Shown here: positions 4,678-4,828 of the stretch, piece by piece
Position numbering within the stretch: position 1 is the first letter of the stretch
Layout: each line of letters begins with the position of its first letter
Virus record (IMG/VR): IMGVR_UViG_3300025141_009903
Span: 1-26,798 of that record
Length of the DNA: 26,798 nt
Direction: 5' to 3' (one strand)
Source: a virus
Program-made: the position numbers and the translations under genes
Notes under the pieces: generated by a model
What the model saw: only the letters and a program-made list of their open reading frames with translations
Told to the model about the DNA's origin: nothing
Database searches by the model: none

Positions 4678-4706
4678 TTGTTTACAATACTATTTTATGC
4701 TATACT
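4678..4706 (+). promoter_or_regulatory. Extended -10 promoter of the portal operon
   Basis: TGCTATACT gives an extended -10 (TATACT at 4701-4706). TTGTTT at 4678-4683 serves as a -35-like hexamer with a 17-base spacer. It overlaps the end of the 153-base gap after the large terminase. Transcription would start near 4713, just ahead of the long stem that begins at 4720. Confidence 0.65.
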
Positions 4707-4719
4707 TAAAACAGTGTTC

Positions 4720-4819
4720 TATTTAATCATTCGGTTGAAACATAAGCCTGTGCTTGTGAGCACGTTTGTACACCTGTTCACGTATTGACTGTATACAATC
4801 GTGGCCGGGTGATTGAATA
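4720..4819 (+). promoter_or_regulatory. Structured RNA leader of the portal gene (long stem with inner hairpins)
   Basis: Bases 4720-4737 pair with 4802-4819 in an uninterrupted 18-pair stem, including six G-U pairs, as read base by base. Inside it, GTGCT (4750-4754) pairs with AGCAC (4759-4763) over a four-base loop, and a second arm (CGTTTGTA with TACAATCG, one mismatch) follows, giving a three-way-junction-like fold. The stem ends nine bases before the portal start. It looks like a cis-acting RNA element, perhaps for autoregulation or RNA stability. The class is not one I recognise. Confidence 0.6.
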
Positions 4820-4828
4820 TAACAACCT

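Follow-up and report, generated by a model that had tools for sequence, protein, structure and literature searches.

Stabilisation of an mRNA by a 5'-terminal stem-loop depends on pairing at the 5' end and not on sequence; the bacterial ompA and papA mRNAs carry stabilising stem-loops of this kind. According to Emory 1992, Bouvet 1992 and Bricker 1999, as cited in PMC3997798, a 5'-terminal stem-loop prolongs mRNA life. Phage transcripts provide further models. Cleavage of T7 RNA by RNase III, for example at R1.1, drives mRNA maturation and protection (PMC8708148). Genes e, soc, 49 and I-TevI of T4 have inhibitory leaders in which a helix holds the Shine-Dalgarno sequence and/or the AUG; T4 genes 25 and 38 have split ribosome-binding sites, the structure of gene 25 being limited to close relatives; and T4 genes 32 and 43 have autogenous translational operators upstream of their start codons, which bind the product of their own gene and persist in relatives, RB69 among them (PMC3014915). 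Literature searches for portal leaders and for structured phage RNAs turned up nothing directly relevant.

The window analysed here spans an entire IMG/VR virus record (26,798 bases), with head-morphogenesis genes in the order terminase small subunit, terminase large subunit (TerL), portal and further head genes. The gene at 9784-10794 is the probable capsid gene, a label taken from the gene order, and its place is kept in relatives. ARAGORN found no tRNA or tmRNA in the window. A gap of 153 bases separates the TerL stop (4675) from the portal ATG (4829) and holds a long stem; it is one of only eight gaps of at least 25 nt in the genome span, which make up 3.9% of the sequence. The features of the locus are as follows.

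2984-4675, plus strand: terminase large subunit gene, 5' of the leader (PHROG 5989, E 1e-12)
4698-4706, plus strand: probable extended -10 promoter element TGCTATACT (motif match; +1 expected near A4713)
4715-4824, plus strand: predicted folded leader RNA, an outer stem with two arms in a three-way junction (fold energy, pair probabilities)
4720-4737, plus strand: 5' arm of the 18-pair stem, of which 4720-4735 pair in the ensemble (stem search, pair probabilities)
4741-4758, plus strand: inner arm 1, a 7-pair hairpin with loop CUGU (pair probability 0.98-0.99)
4761-4803, plus strand: inner arm 2, 4+5 pairs with weaker pairs beyond, abutting the 3' side of the outer stem (0.81-0.96 for the 4+5 pairs)
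4802-4819, plus strand: 3' arm of the 18-pair stem, of which 4804-4819 pair in the ensemble (stem search, pair probabilities)
4829-6844, plus strand: portal (head-tail connector) gene (PHROG 332, E 9e-9)
1795, 4698, 9053 and 16608, plus strand: sites of TGnTATA[AC]T in gaps (motif search)

The initial annotation had described uninterrupted pairing of 4720-4737 with 4802-4819, 18 pairs including six G-U, and this anatomy was confirmed, as were the end of the stem nine bases 5' of the ATG and its start just past the predicted transcription start. In the predicted ensemble, 16 of the 18 pairs were used (4720-4735/4804-4819, pair probability 0.93-1.0), while the two innermost were not formed (4736/4803, 0.02; 4737/4802, 0.00). 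Positions 4802-4803 paired instead with 4761-4762, giving a three-way junction in which both of the inner arms seen by eye are present. Arm 1 comprises the pairs 4741-4747/4752-4758, and arm 2 the pairs 4761-4764/4800-4803 followed by 4766-4770/4794-4798. Outside a 1x1 mismatch, four extra pairs (4715-4718/4821-4824) close the fold.

Compared with the described systems, the portal leader most resembles the stabilising stem-loops of ompA and papA in that predicted pairing would begin two nucleotides from the inferred 5' end and the start codon is free. It differs in its greater length, in having a three-way junction rather than a simple hairpin, and in a 5' end that is predicted. Like the T7 RNase III sites, it would have a long, near-continuous double-stranded stem between phage genes, but is branched and lies behind a sigma-70-like promoter. 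Like the leaders of T4 e, soc, 49 and I-TevI, it is a lineage-limited RNA structure at a phage translation start, whereas the portal AUG lies outside the helix and has no Shine-Dalgarno sequence. As in T4 genes 25 and 38, structure just 5' of the AUG could bring upstream sequence close, but the far side of the portal stem, CTATACTTAAAACAG, offers no Shine-Dalgarno sequence for this, GGAG, GAGG and AGGA all being absent at 4700-4719. With the operators of T4 genes 32 and 43 it has in common an RNA structure 5' of a phage start codon; unlike them, it was found in no relative.

We then compared the stem and its fold with chance. Among stems that allow G-U pairs and a loop of up to 150 nt, it is the longest in the window (the next has 15 pairs), and stems of at least 18 pairs were present in 6% of 300 dinucleotide shuffles of the whole window. 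The leader at 4711-4828 folded at -38.7 kcal/mol against -25.0 +/- 3.4 for its shuffles (z -4.05), and only 1 of 1000 shuffles was as good. The opposite strand was not outstanding (z -1.55, 74 of 1000 shuffles as good), and the inner 64 nt on their own were unremarkable (z -0.43). Other segments of the genome, for example those at 21201 and 12321, fold as well or better against their shuffles, and several of these are coding. The folding energy of the leader is thus unusual, not unique, and moderately beyond chance. The initial annotation had also taken the G-U pairs as a sign of selection on the RNA. A random 18-pair stem is expected to contain 5.7 of them with the base composition of the genome and 5.9 with that of the leader, so the six observed carry no information on RNA selection, and the case for selection on the stem is weaker than had been claimed; a count of G-U pairs in a stem spotted by eye is no evidence of such selection, since chance gives the same share. 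Position does speak for more than chance, as the fold fills a rare gap, beginning just past the predicted transcription start and stopping four bases short of the AUG. We set aside a DNA palindrome or transposon end: only 12 of the 18 positions are Watson-Crick, and the leader is single copy. Elsewhere in the window we noted a 14-pair intergenic hairpin at 12391-12431 with a pyrimidine arm and a purine arm (TCATTTCTCCCTCC / GGGGGGAGGGGTGA, z -3.7), possibly a terminator, though one lacking a strong U run, and a 33-base direct repeat, 88% identical, at 16384-16416 and 16438-16470 within the small gene 16277-16555.

The promoter motif stands 7 nt ahead of the inferred +1. Upstream, TTGTTT at 4678-4683 is a weak match to a -35 element (spacer 17), and both the promoter and the +1 are predictions. 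On the coding strand from 679 to 25960, TGnTATA[AC]T occurs at five sites, four of them in gaps that occupy 3.9% of the span (P about 1e-5). Judged by motif and position, these four are likely host-type promoters for four transcription units, and their concentration supports a class of gap promoters despite the poor -35 at the portal. The predicted leader would run from 4713 to 4828, of which pairing covers 4715-4824. We also set aside a dyad, TTGTAA-N6-TTACAA (4670-4687), that reaches into the -35 region: its size is unsurprising by chance, and its imperfect copies lie elsewhere, away from promoter motifs. Another of the gap promoters, TGATATAAT at 9053, precedes a strongly folded gap (9048-9339, z -3.0 to -4.0) located 5' of gene 9340 and the probable capsid gene. 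Long folded gaps lie at the same place in two relatives (L134 16551-16918, z -3.1; L137 16754-16886, z -2.3) and share 10-12 bases around CTGTAAAAAA. This gap is a better candidate than the portal stem for a conserved leader RNA.

The portal start codon lies outside the stem, unpaired, with U at -1. The region from -8 to +5 had an unpaired probability of 0.70 against a mean of 0.46 over 29 genes and was among the three most open of the 29 gene starts, though the leader is highly structured. No Shine-Dalgarno sequence was found at the portal or hidden in the stem, and only 2 of the 29 gene starts in the window have one. With the AUG open and no Shine-Dalgarno sequence sequestered, the suggestion that the leader controls how much portal is made was not supported, and a switch that works by hiding a Shine-Dalgarno sequence is not indicated by the anatomy because the genes lack such sequences. 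A separate pattern was seen at the starts: T directly precedes the start codon in 27 of the 29 genes, and in 23 of 24 ORFs with an ATG start and a length of 100 aa or more, compared with 23% of internal in-frame ATGs. The same holds in relatives (L135, 12 of 13; L137, 15 of 19; L132, 4 of 4), with L134 at 11 of 20 only. The pattern has the look of a U-AUG start signal and would agree with the extended pairing with initiator tRNA credited to Esposito 2003; it is probably more interesting than the portal stem.

Relatives were found through an alignment with distant TerL proteins and patterns derived from it. TerL is 52-58% identical to its counterparts in L132, L008, L088, L134, L009 and L137, and the portal is 24-37% identical to those of the five relatives in which a related portal adjoins TerL, namely L088/L133 (one contig), L009/L135 (one contig), L142, L137 and L134. 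In four of them the portal start follows TerL after 2 nt (L088/L133), 8 nt (L009/L135), 4 nt (L137) and 8 nt (L142), and the leader is absent. In L134 a small ORF fills the gap, which measures 268 nt and does not fold strongly (z -0.89). The portal of L008 differs greatly (21%), and the 64-nt gap in that relative contains no stem of this kind. Built on a single sequence and thus weak for distant homologues, a covariance model of the leader found only the leader itself in 35 relatives (452 kb), a suggestive result. Conservation was therefore not supported, either at the five related junctions or by the model search, and no second copy of the leader came to light in which compensatory changes could show. 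L132, the closest by TerL (58%), has a promoter-like TGTGGTATAAT right after its TerL stop and, over the 70 nt that remain to the contig end, no ATG that could start a portal gene. By this motif, a promoter at the TerL-portal junction may be shared with L132; the leader could also be present there, past the contig end, and relatives closer than those compared may exist. The small ORF of L134 (11574-11810, MPRGVYKRTENTRNKMSESKK...) may resemble the DNA-binding repeats of homing endonucleases, and the TerL-portal junction seems to tolerate insertions. In L135, about 950 bases break the capsid homologue (16597-17551); they hold an opposite-strand ORF with an HNH-like motif (HHMDGNKLNND), gave no Rfam intron match, and are probably a mobile insertion.

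Wider searches gave little. With Rfam 15 there was no match at the gathering score in the window, nor at E up to 10 in 4650-4900. Against cultured phages, the leader gave short chance matches only (blastn) and the portal none (tblastn). Single-protein scans with the portal, TerL and the 21196 gene returned no relatives, a scan with the portal alignment recovered L009 again and nothing else, and the one hit from a genome collection, a distant TerL in an Omnitrophica MAG, was of no help with the leader. Across all viral contigs, a DNA pattern made of the two arms of the stem matched two, L130 and L131; both matches were rejected as chance because they lie antisense inside homologous coding genes of an unrelated phage.

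Taken together, the anatomy is best accounted for if the portal gene has its own promoter and the mRNA transcribed from it carries a structured 5' untranslated leader, which would stabilise or insulate the 5' end; we give this reading a probability of about 0.36. The portal transcript would start near A4713 with two unpaired nucleotides, after which the 5' UTR would form one compact three-way junction ending four bases before the AUG. In cells, such a base-paired 5' end would protect the transcript against 5'-end-dependent decay, and the fold, being closed, would prevent the leader from base-pairing with the open start codon. The strength of the fold and its restriction to the mRNA strand, the promoter motif 7 nt ahead of the inferred +1 and the enrichment of such motifs in gaps, pairing that nearly spans the leader, the very open start region and the promoter-like sequence in L132 all favour it, while the poor -35, the four relatives that manage without a leader and the frequency of equally long stems in shuffled windows count against it. 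A dependence on pairing and not on sequence would fit an unconserved, G-U-rich stem, and with the 5' end tied up and the start codon open, a 5'-terminal stabilising or insulating stem fits best by analogy.

The serious rival is a chance or neutrally drifting stem without RNA function, the gap being kept only for a useful promoter. We regard this as possible rather than probable: the G-U share is that of random stems, the inner arms do not beat their shuffles, several coding segments are equally extreme, 6% of shuffled windows hold a stem as long and no copy exists in the relatives, but a neutral stem has to fall in one of eight gaps, fill it almost exactly from the inferred +1 to the AUG, and fold as only 1 in 1000 shuffles does on that strand alone. 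By analogy with T7, the next mechanism after a stabilising stem would be processing by RNase III, an unlikely one in our view, in which the host enzyme would cut the helix, give the portal RNA a new 5' end and split it from the terminase transcript. Its 16-bp helix abuts 4+5 bp (pair probabilities 0.81-1.0) and, if stacking at the three-way junction is assumed, would reach about two turns of double-stranded RNA, and terminase read-through RNA would carry the same stem; the six G-U pairs, however, weaken the helix.

A true cis-regulator, in which binding of a protein (portal, for instance) or of a small molecule to the three-way junction would lower portal translation, appears somewhat less likely still. 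The number of portals per capsid is fixed, and dosage control would make sense; a compact three-way junction adjoins the start codon, and the operators of T4 genes 32 and 43 provide a precedent (PMC3014915). A conserved element is nevertheless missing from five relatives with the same gene pair, Rfam gives no match even at E 10, neither start codon nor Shine-Dalgarno sequence is sequestered, and read-through and promoter-made RNA would both contain the leader. Improbable, too, is a lineage-specific three-way-junction RNA that would sense a phage or host factor and set portal output in phages translating without Shine-Dalgarno sequences. Least probable is a separate small RNA transcribed from the 4698 promoter, like packaging RNA or another trans-acting RNA: it would explain an own promoter motif and a compact fold between packaging genes, but no terminator was found 3' of the fold, the portal ATG follows at once, Rfam and the relatives yielded no counterpart, and TerL is of the Terminase_6N kind and not the pRNA-using phi29 ATPase.

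Of the initial interpretation, a structured leader on the mRNA strand behind a plausible promoter has stood, whereas the G-U argument, conservation and portal dosage control have not. The portal leader has the appearance of a familiar type of mRNA leader, specific to its lineage, and not of a conserved new RNA switch. If it is functional, uncultured phages without Shine-Dalgarno sequences would give single structural genes an extra promoter and a structured leader, and such leaders would come and go between lineages.
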